Below are positions 991-21,901 of a stretch of 64,000 bases of DNA, in pieces (positions within the stretch are counted from its first letter, which is position 1; every line of letters begins with the position of its first letter). Position numbers and translations under genes: made by a program. The notes beneath the pieces are model-generated. The model had not been told where the DNA came from, did not search any database, and worked only from the letters and a program-made list of their open reading frames with translations. This DNA comes from Cellulomonas sp. KRMCY2. GTDB lineage: Bacteria; Actinomycetota; Actinomycetes; Actinomycetales; Cellulomonadaceae. The stretch spans positions 1,302,001 through 1,366,000 of the forward strand of contig NZ_JAGF01000001.1 in NCBI RefSeq assembly GCF_000526515.1. Reading direction: 5' to 3'.

Positions 991-1056
991 CCTGCGGTCT
1001 CATCCTGCCGGCCGACCCCGTTGTGCGGGTCGTTCGGCAGGTGTCAGACTCGAACC

Positions 1057-3873
1057 ATGAGCAAGGCCCCGCGGGTCCCGGGGCCGGTTACGCACAGGGG
1101 GACGGCCGGCGTGGATCCGTTCCGTGTCCTTGCCGAGCACTCCATGGACATCACGTTCCACACGATCGGCGGGGTGCTCGAGTGGGTCTCACCGACCGTG
1201 GAGGAGACCCTCGGGTGGAAACCTGAGGAGCTGGTCGGCCGGACCACCGTGCACCTGTGGCATCCGGCGGACCGCGCGGGCGCGGTGGCGCTGCTCGATC
1301 AGGTGCACGCCGGTCGACCCGGACGTGCCGTGTTCCGGATCCGGGCCAAGAGCGGCCGCTACGTCGGGATCGAGACGTCGCTGCAGCCGTTCGTCGAGGC
1401 GGACGGCACGGTCGGTGCGGTCGGGTCGATGCGGGACATGACCGCGCAGATCGCGCTGGAGGCGGCCCGCGCGGAGGCCGAGGAGCGGTTCCGGCTCACG
1501 ATGGAGCACGCGCCGATCGGGCTGTGCCTCGTGTCCCCCGAGGGGCGCTTCCTGCTCGTGAACCCCGCCCTGTGCCAGATACTCGGCCGTGACACCCAGC
1601 GACTGCTGTCGTCGACCTGGCAGGAGCTGACGCACCCGGACGACCTGACGGTCGACGCCGGCCTGATCGACGACGTCGCCGCGGGCCGGGTCCAGTCCTA
1701 CCAGCTGCGCAAGCGCTACCTCAGGCCCGACGGGTCGGTCGTGTGGGGCGACCTGTCCGTGGCGTGCGTGCGCGACAACGACGGCGTCCCGCGGTACTTC
1801 ATCTCGCAGATCGTCAACGCGACCGAACGGGTTCGGGCCGAGCAGGCCCTCGCCCGCCGCGAAGCCGACCTGCGAGCGATGGCGGAGGGCTCGGCGGACA
1901 TCCTGGTCCGGACCGGCCCGGACCGGGAGATCAACTACGTCTCGTCCGCGGTCACCAGGGTCCTCGGCTGGGAACCTGCCGAGCTGCTGGGCGCGAGCTC
2001 GGCGACCCTGTGGCACCCGGAGGACGCGGCACCTGCCGAGGCGAACGTGGCGCTCGCCCGCTCCGGTGTGATCGCGCCGTTCCGCGCTCGGGCGCGCTGC
2101 AAGGACGGCACCTATCGGTGGATCGGGGCCCGTGTCACCCCGCTCGGCGGACCGGACCTGCCCTTCGGGTTCGTCTCGGTCCTGCGCGACGAGCACGAGC
2201 TCGTCCTGCACGAGCGGGCGCTGGCGGAGTCGGAGCAGCACCTGCGCTCGCTCGTGAGCGCATCTGCGGAGGCCCTGTTCGAGTCGGGTCCGGACCACCG
2301 GGTGACATGGGTGTCGCCCGCGGTGACGGCGATCCTCGGGTGGGCGCCGGGCGAGCTCGTCGGCACCGAGATGTCCGACCTCGTGCATCCCGACGACCGG
2401 GCGGAGGTCGAGACGCTGATCGCCGAGATGTACGCCGGCCTCGAGCCGCTCGAGCCCACCGGGCGACGCCTCACCGTGCGGATGCGCACCGAGGCGGGCT
2501 CCTACCGCTGGGTCTCCGCATGGGGCCAGCCGATGGTCGACGAGTCGGGTTCGTTGATCCGGGTCGTGGCCGGTCTGCAGGACATCGACGAGCTCGTCAC
2601 GACCCGGGAGCGGCTGCGGGCCACGTTGGACACGGAGTTCGACCCGCACGTGGTCCTGGCGGCGATCCGCGACGACGACGGACGCATCGTGGACTTCACC
2701 TACGTGGAGACGAACCCGGCGGCCTGCCAGTACAACGGCATCGCGCGCGACGACCTCCTCGGGGCTCGCCTGCTCGAGGTGCAGCCCGGGCACGCGAGCC
2801 CCGAGGTGATGGACCTGTACCGGCACGTCGTGGAGTCCGGTGAGCCGCTGAGGCTTGACGACATCGCCTACGAGCAGGAGCTCAAGGGCGGCCAGACGCG
2901 TCGCTACGACGTCCAGGCCGCGCGCATCGGCGACGGCCTGTCGTACACCTGGCGGGACGTCACCGAGCGGCATGCGACGACCGAGGCCCTCGCGGCCTCG
3001 GAGGAGATGCACCGGCTGCTCGCCGACAACCTGTCCGACGTCGTCGTGCACCTGCGCGACGGGGTCGTCCTGTGGGTCACGCCCTCGTTGACGACCACGA
3101 TGGGCTGGCCGCCGCAGGACTGGCTCGGCCACGCCGTCACCGAGTTCGCCCACCCGGACGACCGAGCGGACGCCGAGGCGGCCACGGCCGCCGTCGGCAC
3201 CGGAGAGGTCCAGCACCTCCGGCTCCGGCTCCAGGCCAAGAACCTCGACCACCACTGGGTCCAGGGCCATGCGAAGCCCTTCTACGACAGGTCCGGCAGC
3301 CAGGACGGCGTCGTCATCTCCTTCCGCGTCGCCGACGTGGAGGTCGCTGCCGAGGCCGCGCTCGAGAACCGGGCGCGGTCCGACGCCCTGACCGGCATGA
3401 TGAACCGCCACGAGGTGCTCGAACGCGTCGCGGCGATGACGAGCCACCCGCGCCGCACCGGGGACGAGGCCGCCGTGCTGTTCGGCGACATCGACGGGTT
3501 CAAGGAGGTCAACGACGAGTACGGCCACTCGGCCGGGGACGACGTCCTGCAGACCATGGCCGCACGCGTCGGCGCCTGCCTGCGCGCCGGGGACATCGCC
3601 GCACGGATCGGCGGCGACGAGCTGCTCGTGCTGCTCGACGGCGTGCACGACCTCGCCGACGCGGTCAGGATCGCCGATACGATCCGCCGAGCCGTCTCGG
3701 CACCGATCCCGACCGCCGAGCGGCAGCTCGTGGTGACGCTCAGCATCGGTGTGACCCTCGCCGTCCCGGGGGAGAGCGTCGACGCGATGATCGCCCGCGC
3801 GGACCAGGCGATGTACCGGGCCAAGCAGGCCGGCGGCGACCGCGTCATGTCGAAGGCGGCGGACGCCGTCTGA
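1057..3873 (+). CDS. Diguanylate cyclase with six PAS domains
   Basis: Predicted to make cyclic-di-GMP in response to several ligands or redox signals. The 938 residues contain six PAS-like units at about 19-128, 142-258, 268-378, 392-511, 517-638 and 649-763, several with the NPALCQ/WVSPAV and LGWxPxELxG pattern, then a GGDEF domain from about 772. The active-site signature is RIGGDEL (about 852-856). An RxxD inhibitory site (RAGD) lies exactly five residues before it, so product inhibition is expected. No EAL domain or membrane segment is seen, so a soluble enzyme is likely. ATG 1057 is chosen because the upstream extension is not protein-like. It may supply the ligand of the c-di-GMP riboswitch at 21.0 kb (inference). 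Confidence 0.9.
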   Translation: MSKAPRVPGPVTHRGTAGVDPFRVLAEHSMDITFHTIGGVLEWVSPTVEETLGWKPEELVGRTTVHLWHPADRAGAVALLDQVHAGRPGRAVFRIRAKSGRYVGIETSLQPFVEADGTVGAVGSMRDMTAQIALEAARAEAEERFRLTMEHAPIGLCLVSPEGRFLLVNPALCQILGRDTQRLLSSTWQELTHPDDLTVDAGLIDDVAAGRVQSYQLRKRYLRPDGSVVWGDLSVACVRDNDGVPRYFISQIVNATERVRAEQALARREADLRAMAEGSADILVRTGPDREINYVSSAVTRVLGWEPAELLGASSATLWHPEDAAPAEANVALARSGVIAPFRARARCKDGTYRWIGARVTPLGGPDLPFGFVSVLRDEHELVLHERALAESEQHLRSLVSASAEALFESGPDHRVTWVSPAVTAILGWAPGELVGTEMSDLVHPDDRAEVETLIAEMYAGLEPLEPTGRRLTVRMRTEAGSYRWVSAWGQPMVDESGSLIRVVAGLQDIDELVTTRERLRATLDTEFDPHVVLAAIRDDDGRIVDFTYVETNPAACQYNGIARDDLLGARLLEVQPGHASPEVMDLYRHVVESGEPLRLDDIAYEQELKGGQTRRYDVQAARIGDGLSYTWRDVTERHATTEALAASEEMHRLLADNLSDVVVHLRDGVVLWVTPSLTTTMGWPPQDWLGHAVTEFAHPDDRADAEAATAAVGTGEVQHLRLRLQAKNLDHHWVQGHAKPFYDRSGSQDGVVISFRVADVEVAAEAALENRARSDALTGMMNRHEVLERVAAMTSHPRRTGDEAAVLFGDIDGFKEVNDEYGHSAGDDVLQTMAARVGACLRAGDIAARIGGDELLVLLDGVHDLADAVRIADTIRRAVSAPIPTAERQLVVTLSIGVTLAVPGESVDAMIARADQAMYRAKQAGGDRVMSKAADAV

Positions 3874-10145: not shown

Positions 10146-10366
10146 CCCCGTTCTGTCCTCAGGGGCGCGCGCCCCGACCTGAGAGTTTGGCCGGTCCGCC
10201 GTCGTCGGGACGAGAGCGGTCCGGCGTGCACCGTCGGTGGACCACCCGTGGGCGGTCGCTTTCCAGAATTGCCTTGCCGCGGCGGTACGGGGGCCTGAGA
10301 GATTCCCGGGGAGGGTTTGCTCCTTCGGCGCCCCGGTCATGACGACCGGGGGCTCTCCCGCCGCAG
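10146..10366 (-). ncRNA. Tandem glycine riboswitch upstream of gcvP
   Basis: Read on the minus strand, two glycine aptamers lie in a row. The first has GGGAGAG, GCCGAAGGAGCAA and the closing AATCTCTCAGG. The second has GGCAAGGCAA, TCTGGAAAGCG, ACCGACGG and the closing AAACTCTCAGG, followed by GACAGA and a G-rich tail. These are the conserved blocks of the glycine riboswitch. It ends about 50 bases before the gcvP start, so binding of glycine should turn on the degradation operon. Boundaries are approximate. Confidence 0.93.
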
Positions 10367-10462
10367 CTCGAGCAGCACGTGTTCGGTTGTGGGGTACGAC
10401 TACGGATCGAGCCGAGCATAGGGCCCCGCAGCGCCCGGCCCTTCGCAGTCTCGGTCCTCGGA

Positions 10463-11824: not shown

Positions 11825-11900
11825 GGACACCAGCGATCCGGGCGCGGGGTCCGGCACGTCACGTGCGGCGGGCTGGGCGCCAGGTGCGTCGGGCAGGGGA

Positions 11901-11967
11901 CAGCCCGTGGGCTACCGGTCGGACGACCGGCGCGCCGTGCTGGACGATGCACGGCTCCCACGGGCTG
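11901..11967. other. Nested inverted repeats in the convergent gap 11825-12161
   Basis: Outer 11-bp perfect arms CAGCCCGTGGG (11901-11911) and CCCACGGGCTG (11957-11967) enclose two further hairpins: CCGGTC/GACCGG (11915-11920, 11925-11930) and CCGTGC/GCACGG (11935-11940, 11949-11954). Folded as RNA this makes a three-way junction. It lies between two convergent genes, so a two-way terminator is the simplest reading. The rest of the gap shows no gene apart from a doubtful 12-codon ORF at 12040-12078 on the minus strand. Confidence 0.5.
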
Positions 11968-12161
11968 CGGTGACTGCCGGGGTCTCGCTGCCGCCACGCG
12001 GCTCGGGACCGGAACAATCCGTCCGATGCACTCGGGCGACTAGCTGGCAGTCACCTCACGCGTCCTGGAAGACATCATCTTCTTGGCCACCTCCTTTCCC
12101 GTGTCCGAAGAAAGTACGTCCGCGGCGGCGTCCTGCCAAGGGGTTTTCGTCACCTGTTCGG

Positions 12162-17677: not shown

Positions 17678-18685
17678 TCAGGCGGGGGCCGGGCCGGTGG
17701 AACCGCGGACCACGAGCTCCGGTTCGAAGAGCAGCTCGTCGCTGGCGACCGTCGCCCCGTTGATCTGACTGACCAGCAGGTCGATCGCCGCGCGACCCAT
17801 CGGCTCGATCGGCTGTCGGACCGTGGTCAGCGGGGGATCGGTGCAGTTCATCAGCGCCGAGTCGTCGTACCCGATCACCGAGACGTCATCCGGCACGCGC
17901 AGCCCCGCCCTGCGCACGGCGCGGATCGCACCGAGGGCCAGGGGGTCGCTGGCGCAGATGATGCCGGTGACACCGGTGCGCAGCAGCCGGGTCGCTGCCG
18001 CCTGGCCGCTCTCCAGCGAGTAGGCACTGCGGACCACCCGATCGGCGCCCAGCTCGATGCCGAGCCGCGCGGCCATCGCGCGGGCCGCGCCGAGCTTGCG
18101 CTCCGACGGCACGTGGTCCTGCGGGCCGAGGACGAAGCCGATCCGCGAGTGGCCGAGCGAGACGAGGTGACCGAGCGACTGCTCGACCGCGACCTCGTCG
18201 TCGCAGGCCACCCGAGGGAAGGGCAGGTCCTCGATCGACGCGTTGATCAGGACGGCGGGCAGGTGTCGCTCGGTCAGCCGGGCGTAGTGCGCGTGCTCGG
18301 CATCCCGCTGGGCGTAGTTGCCGCCCGCGAAGACGATCCCGGAGACCTGCTGGGCCAGCAGCAGGTCGACGTAGTCGGACTCGGTGATCCCACCGGCAGT
18401 CTGGGTGCACAGCACGGGGGTGAAACCCTGCTGCGCGAGGGCGCCACCGACGACCTCGGCGAAGGCCGGGAAGATCGGGTTCTGCAGCTCGGGCAGCACC
18501 AGACCGACCAGTCGGGCCCGCTCACCGCGCAGCTTGGTCGGGCGCTCGTAGCCGAGCACGTCCAGCGCGGTCAGGACTGACGACCGGGTGGCGTCCGAGA
18601 CGCCGGGCTTGCCGTTCAGGACCCGACTCACGGTCGCCTCGCTCACCCCGACCTTGCGGGCCACCTCAGCAAGACGTCGCGACAT
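17678..18685 (-). CDS. LacI-family transcriptional regulator
   Basis: 335 residues. N-terminal HTH RLAEVARKVGVSEATVSRVLNGKPGVSDATRSSVLTALDVLGY with the hinge helix after it, then a periplasmic-binding-protein-like sugar domain (VGLVLPELQNPIFPAFAEVV, GIVFAGG, IICASDPLALGAIRAVRRAGLRVPDDVSVIGYDD). Likely represses the glucosidase/ABC operon just downstream until its sugar binds. ATG 18685 has no ribosome binding site; a TATGCT box ends only about 7 bases before it, so the mRNA may be leaderless. Two palindromes at the start suggest autorepression. Confidence 0.92.
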   Translation of the reverse strand: MSRRLAEVARKVGVSEATVSRVLNGKPGVSDATRSSVLTALDVLGYERPTKLRGERARLVGLVLPELQNPIFPAFAEVVGGALAQQGFTPVLCTQTAGGITESDYVDLLLAQQVSGIVFAGGNYAQRDAEHAHYARLTERHLPAVLINASIEDLPFPRVACDDEVAVEQSLGHLVSLGHSRIGFVLGPQDHVPSERKLGAARAMAARLGIELGADRVVRSAYSLESGQAAATRLLRTGVTGIICASDPLALGAIRAVRRAGLRVPDDVSVIGYDDSALMNCTDPPLTTVRQPIEPMGRAAIDLLVSQINGATVASDELLFEPELVVRGSTGPAPA

Positions 18686-18722
18686 TGCGCAAGCATATGA
18701 CTGATGCCGCAAGCCGCTTGCG
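18685..18722. promoter_or_regulatory. LacI-type operators at the regulator's own start
   Basis: Two palindromes overlap and precede the ATG of the LacI-type gene: TTGCGCAA (18685-18692) and CGCAAG-CCG-CTTGCG (18708-18722). The half-site CGCAAG is shared, and recurs once at 17461 upstream of the glucosidase operon. Shape and place fit autoregulation by the encoded repressor. Confidence 0.55.
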
Positions 18723-18879
18723 TGATCTGCGTCATCGCGCGGCGGTCTGCCCGCCGATCCGACAGCACATCTCGAGTGCGCCCCCAAGTGCCTCTCGAGT
18801 GCGCGCACCGGGCCACGCCCGTAGGGTCAGACACCGAACCGCCGGAGCCCTCCGCCCGGCGACGGCACGAAGGACACCT

Positions 18880-20811
18880 GTGACCCACCTCCCGGCGGCA
18901 GCCTCCGCGGTGCTCGCCGGTCTGTGCCTGGCCCTCGCCGCGGCCTGCACGCCGACCCCGCCCGAGGTGGAGCAGCCGACCGTCACGCCGACGGCGACGC
19001 CCACCCCGACGCCCGCGCCGGTGCACACCGCCGAGCTGAGGCTCCCGCCCGGTCCGACGACCGTGCTCGACCTGCCGGATGCCGTGAGCCGCGCTGCCGC
19101 GGCCAGCACGACCTTCTACTCCAGCGCCCCGGTCGCGGTCCTGGCACCCGCCGACGACGTCGCCGCGCAGGTCCGGGCGGCCGGCATCGCCGTCACGCTC
19201 GGCGCTCCCCTCCTGCTGACCTCACCGACGACCGCGCCCGCCGTCGAACCGACGGCCCCGGCAGTCGATCCGGCGGTCGATCCGGCGGTCGATCCAGCAG
19301 TCGACCCGGCAGCGACACCCGACACGGGCGCACCGGCAGACCCCACGAGCATCGAGCTGGACAGGCTCGGGGTGCTGGCGGTGGTGACGGTCGGCGACGT
19401 CGGCTCGGACCTGACGTCCGTCGTCGGCGACGCGGCAGTCGTCGCAGCGCCCCAGGACGACGCGGAGCTCGCCGCCGTGCTGCTGATCGATCCTGATCCG
19501 GCGCCCATGCCGGCGACGGGCACCGAGCAGGCCACCGTCGCCGCCCTCGACCGCGACGCCCCGACGGTGCCGAGCAGCGCGGCCGACGAGGGACCGGCCG
19601 TCCGGGCGGCGTCGGCCACGTCACCGGCCACACCCGCACCCACGGAGCCGCCGTCCGGCGCCGCGCCGTCGGGCGCCTCGACACCGTCCCGTTCACCGTC
19701 GCCCACCGCGTCGGCCACGCCCACGCCGTCCGCCACGCCGGGCCCGGCCGAGACCGCACTGCCGTTGACCGAGCTCGCCGAACCGCTCGACGGTGGGCTG
19801 CTGCTGACGACGGGCGACCCGATGGACCTGGCCGCCCTGGCGACCGCGCGCGCGGCCGGCGTCACCGTCCTGACGGTGCCGACCGGCGACCCGCGGGCCG
19901 ACAGCGCCACCGTGCGTGGTCTCGCCGACGCCGCCGCGACGAGCATCGTCGGGCTCGGCCCGGCCTTCGGCTCCGCGGAGACCCTGGCCTGGAAGTCGCA
20001 GACCGCGGCGACCGGGACCGAGCTGCCTGGCGGGGGTCAGCTCGTCTTCGCCGGGCGGCGCTTCGTCGCGCTGTACGGGACCCCGACCTTCCCGGCGCTC
20101 GGCGTCCTCGGGGAGCAGGATCCCGCGGCCAGCGTCGTGCGCGCCCAGGGGCTCGCCGCGCAGTACCAGGCGCTGACGTCGGACCTCGTCGTCCCCGCCT
20201 TCGAGATCATCGTGACGATCGCGTCGTCGGGAGCCGGGGCGGACGGCAACTACTCCAACGAGCTACCGGCCGAGAGCTTCATCCCGTGGATCGAGGCGGC
20301 GCGCGACGCGGGGGTCTACGTGGTGCTGGACCTGCAGCCGGGACGCACGGACTTCCTCACCCAGGCCAAGGCGTACGAGTCGCTGCTGCTCTACCCGAAC
20401 GTCGGGCTGGCGCTCGACCCGGAGTGGCGACTGGCTCCCGACCAGGTGCACCTGCGCCAGATCGGCTCGGTGCACGTCGACGAGGTCAACGCCGTCGCGG
20501 CCTACCTCGCGGAGCTGACCCGGACCAACCACCTGCCGCAGAAGGTGCTCGTCCTGCACCAGTTCGTGCAGCGCATGATCCAGGGTCGCGAACTGGTCGA
20601 CACCTCCCACGAGGAGGTGGCCGTGCTCATCCACGCGGACGGCCAGGGCAGCCAGGGCGCGAAGGCCGGGACCTGGGCCGCCCTGCACGAGGGCGCCCCC
20701 GCCGGTGTCCGCTGGGGCTGGAAGAACTTCCTGGACGAGGACGTCCCGGTGCTCGACCCGACGCAGACCTACCAGGTGGTGCCCACGCCGGAGTTCGTCA
20801 GCTACCAGTGA
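18880..20811 (+). CDS. Large secreted lipoprotein of unknown function
   Basis: 643 residues from GTG 18880 (AAGGA just upstream). Signal peptide with lipobox LAAAC, Cys23, then a Thr/Pro-rich linker (TPTATPTPTPAP). The next region (about 45-105) resembles a cell-wall-binding repeat 2 half-domain (VAVLAPADDVAAQVRAAGIAVTLGAPLLLT). Then come a 12-bp DNA repeat coding AVDP four times (19261-19308) and a long Pro/Ser/Thr/Ala linker. The C-terminal 330 residues are better conserved in style (FEIIVTIASSGAGADGNYS, YVVLDLQPGRTDFL, LYPNVGLALDPEWRL, VLVLHQFVQRM) and look like a beta/alpha-barrel hydrolase with Asp and Glu at strand ends. Family not certain. No signal links it to the flagellar genes. Confidence 0.75.
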   Translation: MTHLPAAASAVLAGLCLALAAACTPTPPEVEQPTVTPTATPTPTPAPVHTAELRLPPGPTTVLDLPDAVSRAAAASTTFYSSAPVAVLAPADDVAAQVRAAGIAVTLGAPLLLTSPTTAPAVEPTAPAVDPAVDPAVDPAVDPAATPDTGAPADPTSIELDRLGVLAVVTVGDVGSDLTSVVGDAAVVAAPQDDAELAAVLLIDPDPAPMPATGTEQATVAALDRDAPTVPSSAADEGPAVRAASATSPATPAPTEPPSGAAPSGASTPSRSPSPTASATPTPSATPGPAETALPLTELAEPLDGGLLLTTGDPMDLAALATARAAGVTVLTVPTGDPRADSATVRGLADAAATSIVGLGPAFGSAETLAWKSQTAATGTELPGGGQLVFAGRRFVALYGTPTFPALGVLGEQDPAASVVRAQGLAAQYQALTSDLVVPAFEIIVTIASSGAGADGNYSNELPAESFIPWIEAARDAGVYVVLDLQPGRTDFLTQAKAYESLLLYPNVGLALDPEWRLAPDQVHLRQIGSVHVDEVNAVAAYLAELTRTNHLPQKVLVLHQFVQRMIQGRELVDTSHEEVAVLIHADGQGSQGAKAGTWAALHEGAPAGVRWGWKNFLDEDVPVLDPTQTYQVVPTPEFVSYQ

Positions 20812-20823
20812 CGAACGGGTCGG

Positions 20824-21000
20824 TCAGACCTTCGCGGACTGGCTGGGCAGGACGGCGAAGTAGGCGCGTGAGCTGGCGAGGGCGGCCCAGCGAGCCAGCA
20901 CCTGCGGCGGGACCTCGAAGTCGCCGTTCGAGCCTGCGCTCGCACCGTCCACGGAGGACGAGGACGGGGACGGGGAGCTGGTGACTGCGTGATCGCCCAT
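20824..21000 (-). CDS. 58-residue orphan protein under a c-di-GMP riboswitch
   Basis: Reads MGDHAVTSSPSPSSSSVDG, then GASAGSNGDFEVPPQVLARW and AALASSRAYFAVLPSQSAKV. A Ser/Pro-rich flexible N-terminus is followed by a possible amphipathic helix (PPQVLARWAALASSRAYF). No signal peptide, membrane segment or known family is seen. ATG 21000 has AGAGAAG 8 bases upstream, right after the GEMM-I aptamer ends. It is the only gene on this strand that the riboswitch could control, because the next gene is convergent. Coding status rests on the riboswitch, start and site; without them an ORF this short would be doubtful. Confidence 0.55.
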   Translation of the reverse strand: MGDHAVTSSPSPSSSSVDGASAGSNGDFEVPPQVLARWAALASSRAYFAVLPSQSAKV

Positions 21001-21011
21001 GACGCGCTTCT

Positions 21012-21092
21012 CTCGTTCGGTGGCCCGGCTGACCTCGAGGGTCCCGTGGCTTTGCGTCCCCACCTCGCGGCGGGTTTGCCCTTGTCGCTGAC
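21012..21092 (-). ncRNA. GEMM-I cyclic-di-GMP riboswitch
   Basis: On the minus strand the conserved GEMM-I blocks appear in order and with normal spacing: CAGCGACAAGGGCAAACC, a short stem CGCCGCGAGGTG, GGGACGCAAAGCC, a second stem with loop (ACGGGACCC to GGTCAGCCGGG), and the closing CCACCGAACG. The GGGACGCAAAGCC and GGCAAACC strings are diagnostic. It ends 12 bases before the start codon of the 58-residue ORF, with AGAGAAG in between, so control of translation start is plausible. Whether c-di-GMP turns the gene on or off cannot be read. Confidence 0.9.
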
Positions 21093-21190
21093 TCAACCAG
21101 GCTACGTGCGACACGCCGACGATGCACCCCTCGCCACCCGTTCGGCTCAGCCTTTTCACCCGCGCACGATCACTCCGGCCGCCCCAGTCC

Positions 21191-21217
21191 TCATCGCGGC
21201 CGGCACCCGGCCGATCA
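21191..21217 (+). promoter_or_regulatory. FliA-type promoter of the M15 peptidase gene
   Basis: TCAT at 21191-21194, 15 bases, GCCGATCA at 21210-21217. This is the same box, with the same spacing, as before fliC, flbD and cheA in this window. It lies 36 bases before the GTG of the peptidase gene. Confidence 0.75.
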
Positions 21218-21253
21218 GAGAGGTGCCAGCATCCGATCTGGAGGGACCCGCGC

Positions 21254-21901
21254 GTGGAGGCAGTCGCCAGCATCAACGACCGGATCATGCAGATCCAGGC
21301 GCGGATCGCCCAGCTCGACGCGCCGCGACCTCGGGCCCAGGTGGGCCAGACGACCCCGATGGGCTCGATCGGCTCGGTCGGCTCGCTGACGACCGGCGCG
21401 CCGACATCGGCGACCGCCTTCGACCTGATCATGGACCAGGCGCTCGCGCAGACCGCGCCGGCCAGTGACGTCGTGGGTTCCGGCAAGGACAAGGTCAACG
21501 GCGACGGGATCCCCGTCGAGCTCCTCGGATACGGCAACGGCCGCATCCCCGGGAACGCGCTGAGCACCATCGCCGGTACCGGTCACTCCCTCTGGAGCCC
21601 GGCCGCACGGTCGTTCGAGGCCATGCGGGACGCGGCCGCGCGCGACGGTGTGACGATCGGGATCACCGACTCCTACCGCACCTACGAGAGCCAGGTCGAC
21701 CTCGCCGAGCGCAAGGGGCTCTACTCCCAGGGTGGCCTTGCCGCCCGGCCCGGCACGAGCGACCACGGCTGGGGGGTCGCCATGGATCTCCGCCTCGACT
21801 CGACCGCGCAGTCGTGGATCCGGGCCAACGGCGCCACGTACGGGTTCACCGAGGACGTCCCGCGCGAGCCCTGGCACTGGGCGTACCGCCCGACCCACTG
21901 A
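21254..21901 (+). CDS. M15B (VanY-like) D,D-carboxypeptidase/peptidoglycan hydrolase, flagellar regulon
   Basis: 215 residues. N-terminal part begins with a short coiled helix (SINDRIMQIQARIAQL) and a low-complexity Gly/Ser linker. The catalytic domain (about 75-215) has the LAS-type zinc site: SDHGWGVAMD (His171, Asp178) and PWHWAY (His208); TDSYRTYESQ precedes it, as in VanY/M15 enzymes. No signal peptide is seen. GTG 21254 has GGAGGG 8 bases upstream. The FliA-type promoter suggests export by the flagellar apparatus or a role in making a gap in the wall for the rod. No FlgJ is seen in the window (inference). Confidence 0.85.
   Translation: MEAVASINDRIMQIQARIAQLDAPRPRAQVGQTTPMGSIGSVGSLTTGAPTSATAFDLIMDQALAQTAPASDVVGSGKDKVNGDGIPVELLGYGNGRIPGNALSTIAGTGHSLWSPAARSFEAMRDAAARDGVTIGITDSYRTYESQVDLAERKGLYSQGGLAARPGTSDHGWGVAMDLRLDSTAQSWIRANGATYGFTEDVPREPWHWAYRPTH

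Follow-up and report, generated by a model that had tools for sequence, protein, structure and literature searches.

What does a c-di-GMP riboswitch control when the gene placed directly under it encodes a peptide of 58 residues without a known family? The question is raised by a locus in a 64,000-nt stretch of the genome of Cellulomonas sp. KRMCY2 (contig NZ_JAGF01000001.1, positions 1,302,001 to 1,366,000; hereafter, the window). The answer that we consider probable, judging from sequence comparison, is that c-di-GMP gates, via the aptamer, translation of a one-helix, partner-binding peptide that belongs to a regulon containing BldC and a GGDEF protein.

A cmscan of the whole window found a single GEMM-type match, at 21015..21089 on the minus strand (read 21089-21015), where a preliminary description of the locus had placed a GEMM-I aptamer of family RF01051. 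The aptamer is borne out, and its score against RF01051 is well above the cut-off (59.6 vs 35 bits, genome search), but the top Rfam model is RF03167, "c-di-GMP-I-GGC" (64.9 bits, cut-off 59, E 4.8e-13). Genome-wide, nine GEMM-I aptamers are present. An alignment of the aptamers of 19 small-ORF loci and the eight other own-genome aptamers (27 rows, 26 distinct) reveals covariation. Specifically, pairing is present in 95.4% of cells over 21 stated pairs, falling to 23-44% once partners are slid, and both sides have changed at 6/21 pairs; none of 500 shuffles reached either value. The window aptamer shares with the c-di-GMP-I riboswitches of RF01051/RF03167 their architecture, contact bases, and position in a 5′ leader; it differs from the known ones in preceding an unclassified peptide of ~50 residues and in abutting the Shine-Dalgarno sequence, with no visible separate expression platform. 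The riboswitch belongs to a known kind, and the protein family downstream is unclassified. Two other structured RNAs were matched in the window, on the minus strand: a glycine riboswitch (RF00504, 66.8 bits, 10273-10370) and an Ms_IGR-5 sRNA (RF02471, 72.5 bits, 11895-12104).

The accessible parts of two papers give G20, A47, and C92 as ligand contacts in the Vc2 aptamer (PMC4744006, PMC3764141). By our own mapping, G20 falls on the leading G of GGCAAA, A47 on the first A after GACGC, and C92 on the leading C of CCGA. The window aptamer has GGCAAA, GACGCAAA, and ACCGA, with canonical bases at all three positions. Across the 19 small-ORF aptamers, GGCAAA and GACGCAAA are each present in 19/19 and the C92 position is C in 18/19, the exception having U (G006). 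In the RF03167 consensus, the A47 position, after GACGC, is G, which the A of the window aptamer does not match; we read the "GGC" of the model name as the bases at the G20/A47/C92 positions, and the accessible parts of papers on the model only name it (PMC9943018, PMC12452182). Because the window has G20, A47, and C92, whereas G follows GACGC in the RF03167 consensus, the aptamer is, by its contact bases, of the canonical c-di-GMP type, though a variant model scores best, and c-di-GMP is the expected ligand, as had been proposed.

That the best Rfam model is named as a variant could instead suggest a variant class, responding to a ligand other than c-di-GMP. We consider this very improbable, since, besides the A in place of the G of RF03167, several observations argue against it. 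First, retention of G20 speaks against the c-AMP-GMP variant. Second, the J2/3 triplet was tabulated for 120 aptamers from 35 of 99 related genomes (AAA, 109; AGA, 4; ACA, CAA, CAC, and GCA, one each; unreadable, 3), and GAA is found in none of the 117 readable ones. Third, such aptamers precede a GGDEF gene in the own genome and, in three relatives (G007, G009, G012), genes judged by eye to be of EAL type.

The aptamer probably lies at the start of its transcript. Specifically, a -10-like hexamer, TAGCCT (21099..21104, minus strand), ends 6 nt before GTCAGCGA, and TAnnnT is found inside a 13-nt interval at this site in 15/19 orthologous loci, which together point to transcription starting at or near GTCAGCGA. 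Further upstream, at 21134..21144 on the minus strand, is a box, CGAACGGGTGG, that is a candidate activator site. The own genome contains 25 copies of the pattern CGAACGGGTGR vs 2 of the reversed pattern, and a looser pattern, xGxxxGGGTG, is present 30-110 nt upstream of 19/19 small-ORF aptamers, a raw count with varying distance. The places of CGAACGGGTGR include one upstream of the small-protein aptamer and one upstream of a bldC aptamer (3019397).

A Shine-Dalgarno-like sequence, GAGAGAAG, is positioned directly past the aptamer (21007..21014, minus strand), and purine-rich stretches are present at this position in relatives. The preliminary description had the aptamer ending 12 bases before a ribosome binding site and ATG; the order of elements stands, but the distance from the aptamer end to the ATG (at 21000) is 14 nt, with the Shine-Dalgarno sequence inside this gap. 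A consensus scan of 20700-21300 for sigma-70 promoters and terminators found nothing. Since no terminator was found and the Shine-Dalgarno sequence is within a few bases of the aptamer, translational control of the small ORF is most likely. As to its direction, we lean slightly towards repression of translation by c-di-GMP, because P1 is within a few bases of the Shine-Dalgarno sequence. Folding of 18 loci with and without the isolated aptamer domain revealed no consistent switch in Shine-Dalgarno accessibility (mean unpaired 0.52 vs 0.50).

The ORF under the aptamer (20824..21000, minus strand) comprises 58 codons and a stop, with an ATG start. With the 58 residues as query, a search of 99 related genomes identified the ORF in 16/19 genomes of the same genus, own genome included, and a diverged small ORF is present under the aptamer in the remaining three (G010, G014, G016), for a total of 19/19. 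The frame and start are thus kept in relatives that keep the aptamer: the aptamer-to-ATG distance is 11-16 nt across the 19 loci, and the products have 47-58 residues. (For G010, the ATG at +14, not that at +5, was used in alignments.) Codon-level analysis reveals purifying selection in the helix core, a segment of 13 codons, with pN/pS of 0.36 (18 sequences) and third-position diversity of 0.41 vs 0.20 and 0.08 (19 sequences; 0/20,000 permutations as extreme). Taken over 45 aligned codon columns, the ratio is 0.86 (18 sequences), indicating weak selection outside the helix and a fast-evolving N-terminal part. By these sequence measures, the ORF encodes a real, conserved protein.

The protein family extends beyond the genus. 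Seven further small ORFs are present under aptamers in three related genera (g13, g16, g20), and profile comparison assigns them to the same family (P 9.8e-7, 0/300 shuffles). A profile built from aptamer-linked ORFs, comprising 21 of the 26 members, was searched against 297 genomes of the order and gave 35 matches with E no higher than 0.01. These matches fall into two sets: eight places at E below 1e-5, all eight directly under an aptamer, and 27 weaker places (E 8e-4 or weaker), none of which adjoins an aptamer by coordinates. Five of the eight strong places were already in the profile, and three are new (G210, G301, G337). In 394 genomes of the class, the search returned, besides the own gene, only two places that look like chance, both in one genome (G639), which were rejected as members, their 3-kb stretches being without the aptamer core motif. 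The 58-residue query had also given weak matches among the 99 related genomes, in G040, in G073, and at a second place in G006; the first two were rejected, since neither genome gave a hit in an aptamer search. No member was recovered from some of the bacterial family's genomes that carry aptamers, including G019, G043, and G270. In these samples, members of the protein family occur within a single bacterial family and in association with the aptamer.

The aptamer-ORF pair occupies the same locus in 19/19 genomes of the genus. In the window, it is located between a converging gene (18685..20811, plus strand) that has no Pfam match and a diverging gene for a VanY-type carboxypeptidase (21122..21901, plus strand; Pfam VanY, E 4.5e-13), both kept in relatives; the listed starts of both ORFs are mechanical, that of the VanY-type ORF probably being too far upstream. 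A homologue of one or both neighbours is present at 19/19 loci of the genus, and both are present at 16. The close approach of the converging gene raises the alternative that the peptide is dispensable and that the c-di-GMP-controlled transcript acts as an antisense RNA into the 3′ end of that gene: the ORF stop (20824) and the end of the converging gene (20811) are twelve bases apart, and a consensus scan finds no terminator between them. Selection on the ORF at the codon level argues against this alternative, as do the relatives in other genera, located where no homologue of the converging gene was found, and we regard it as improbable compared with control of a functional peptide.

The preliminary description had also pointed to the flagellar neighbourhood and to a diguanylate cyclase in the window, and had proposed a flagellar or cell-wall component as the partner of the peptide. 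The first two points hold: a chemotaxis/flagellar cluster adjoins the locus (about 22062-62147, gene identities by eye), and a GGDEL-type ORF is present at 1021-3873. The proposed partner is unsupported. In particular, six neighbour proteins of the window have no homologue in the 8-kb stretches around the seven members from other genera, which likewise have an aptamer of this type upstream, and, by eye, the ORFs around nine other-genus aptamers have none in common with the window. The flagellar link is therefore local to this genus.

The peptide is without a known family, as had been stated: scans of 18 members against Pfam and NCBIfam assigned none. Two candidates were rejected, each matching 1/18 members: Lsr2 (weak match, E 0.2) and the LPFR motif small protein NF040918 (NCBIfam, E 0.069, not a match), which has small size in common with the window peptide. 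When PDB sequences were searched with a profile, at an E limit of 10, the hits were unrelated enzymes, the best at E 0.74. Across the family, the peptide comprises a fast-evolving Ser- and acid-rich start, a helix with P-x-x-L-A-R-W-A-x-x-A, and a tail with [LVI]P-x-Q. An AlphaFold2 model from 13 sequences contains one helix, residues 32-49 (PQVLARWAALASSRAYFA; codons at 20854..20907, minus strand), and no other element; its overall confidence is low (mean pLDDT 64, pTM 0.33), with a mean pLDDT of 88 for residues 31-40. The model is consistent with the single helix first described. The peptide probably lacks an independent fold. We infer that it is cytoplasmic and that it acts, most plausibly, through binding a partner protein.

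The genes following the 120 aptamers were assigned by motif: 41 are BldC-like, 3 are degenerate BldC-like, 19 + 7 encode the small protein, and 50 are other genes; inspection by eye places EAL-type, signal-peptide, and response-regulator proteins among these. Aptamer-linked bldC is present in 29 genomes, including 25/25 of those having the small protein, a co-occurrence for which shared ancestry could suffice. BldC is a more constant company of the small protein than are the flagellar genes. The own genome has five BldC-like places, four of them under an aptamer (G000:C1:1200626, 3692344, 3019472, and 1537443), one of these four being degenerate. The degenerate genes under an aptamer (G005:C22:26207, G018:C22:139704, and G000:C1:1537443) keep the aptamer, some of the recognition-helix region, and a [LV]PTQVR end, and have lost the wing motif. 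Another own-genome aptamer (L023, G000:C1:3710819), in which J2/3 starts with C rather than A, precedes the gene for a GGDEF-motif protein, raising the possibility of feedback on c-di-GMP synthesis.

Other aptamer-linked genes were observed alongside these. At L019 (G000:C1:666956) and at comparable loci of several same-genus genomes, proteins of ~132-142 aa that look secreted are encoded ~190-250 nt past the aptamer, and in three such loci viewed a short ORF of 28-40 codons directly follows the aptamer. Two small aptamer-linked ORFs (G047:C12:33078 and G023:C45:31550) end in FVPAQVR or FVPAQIR, are without the conserved helix motif, and perhaps represent another class of short ORFs linked to aptamers. 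In the open-licence literature, we found no paper linking BldC to a c-di-GMP riboswitch and none on Actinotalea with c-di-GMP; in the accessible part of one paper that mentions BldC and a riboswitch, BldC is merely a neighbouring gene (PMC11678152).

The company of bldC leads to the question of whether the peptide is itself a BldC derivative. BldC is a 68-residue MerR-like wHTH protein of Streptomyces. It and the window peptide are alike in being very small, in having the same aptamer family upstream in this group, and in resembling each other, weakly and locally, at the recognition helix and tail. They are unlike in that the peptide is without HTH domain, wing, or Pfam match, and its membership in BldC is unsupported: a Pfam HTH (HTH_17/MerR) is found in none of the 18 small-protein members, whereas the three intact own-genome BldC-like proteins scanned match HTH_17 at E 1.8e-11 to 8.8e-13. 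In BldC, according to the accessible part of PMC5859096, Phe21, Val23, and Trp31 pack on the adjacent subunit; the phosphate-holding residues are Thr27, Thr29, and Lys33; Arg30 is the base-reading residue; and the contacts of the wing involve His46, Arg47, and Arg48. By alignment of peptide FEVPPQVLARWAALA with BldC FRVDPKTVTRWAKAG, the peptide would keep residues 21 (own sequence), 23, 30, and 31, would have V, A, and A in place of 27, 29, and 33, and would be without the wing.

The origin of such a peptide could be a copied riboswitch-bldC cassette, its frame cut to the recognition-helix region and the C-terminal tail. In support, comparison of the genus family with a BldC profile gives a 16-column local match, VPPQVLARWAA with FRVDPKTVTRWA (P 0.0027), that 0/700 column shuffles equal, in a comparison chosen after the resemblance was seen; the peptide tail, LPxQ, resembles the BldC tail, VPxQ; and such an origin fits both the existence of degenerate BldC-like genes linked to this type of aptamer and the co-occurrence with aptamer-linked bldC. 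However, the probability of the profile match is just 11%, the match weakens when the seven other-genus members are added (5/300 shuffles reach it) or taken alone (8/200), the PDB-sequence search does not recover BldC, no member has a Pfam HTH, and the co-occurrence is confounded by ancestry. On this balance, and given the post hoc choice of comparison, BldC origin is suggestive, and we hold it as a tentative possibility. A function built on it is less probable still: retaining the Val23/Trp31 head-to-tail face without the wing, the peptide would modulate BldC oligomers on DNA as c-di-GMP changes. In its full form, in which a c-di-GMP-controlled wingless mini-BldC binds the riboswitch-controlled BldC paralogues via the Trp/Val face and caps or loosens head-to-tail DNA arrays, we consider it unlikely. 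If it were true, copies of a single aptamer would let one second messenger set a regulator together with its antagonist.

In the reading that we prefer, c-di-GMP-gated translation of a partner-binding peptide, the promoter would make a short mRNA begin with the GEMM-I aptamer; c-di-GMP binding would stabilise the short P1 stem abutting the ribosome-binding site; P1 stabilisation would alter translation of the cytoplasmic peptide; and the peptide, binding a partner protein, would serve a c-di-GMP regulon with BldC paralogues and a GGDEF protein. For the protein family, this means that a candidate input signal is gained ahead of a function, which makes a direct test possible. In the organism, a dense set of c-di-GMP-type riboswitches, nine aptamers in one genome, extends to BldC. 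In Streptomyces, according to the accessible part of PMC6428758, c-di-GMP acts through BldD, and BldC activates the cyclase gene cdgE. In the present organism, BldC would itself come under c-di-GMP control, which might close a loop.
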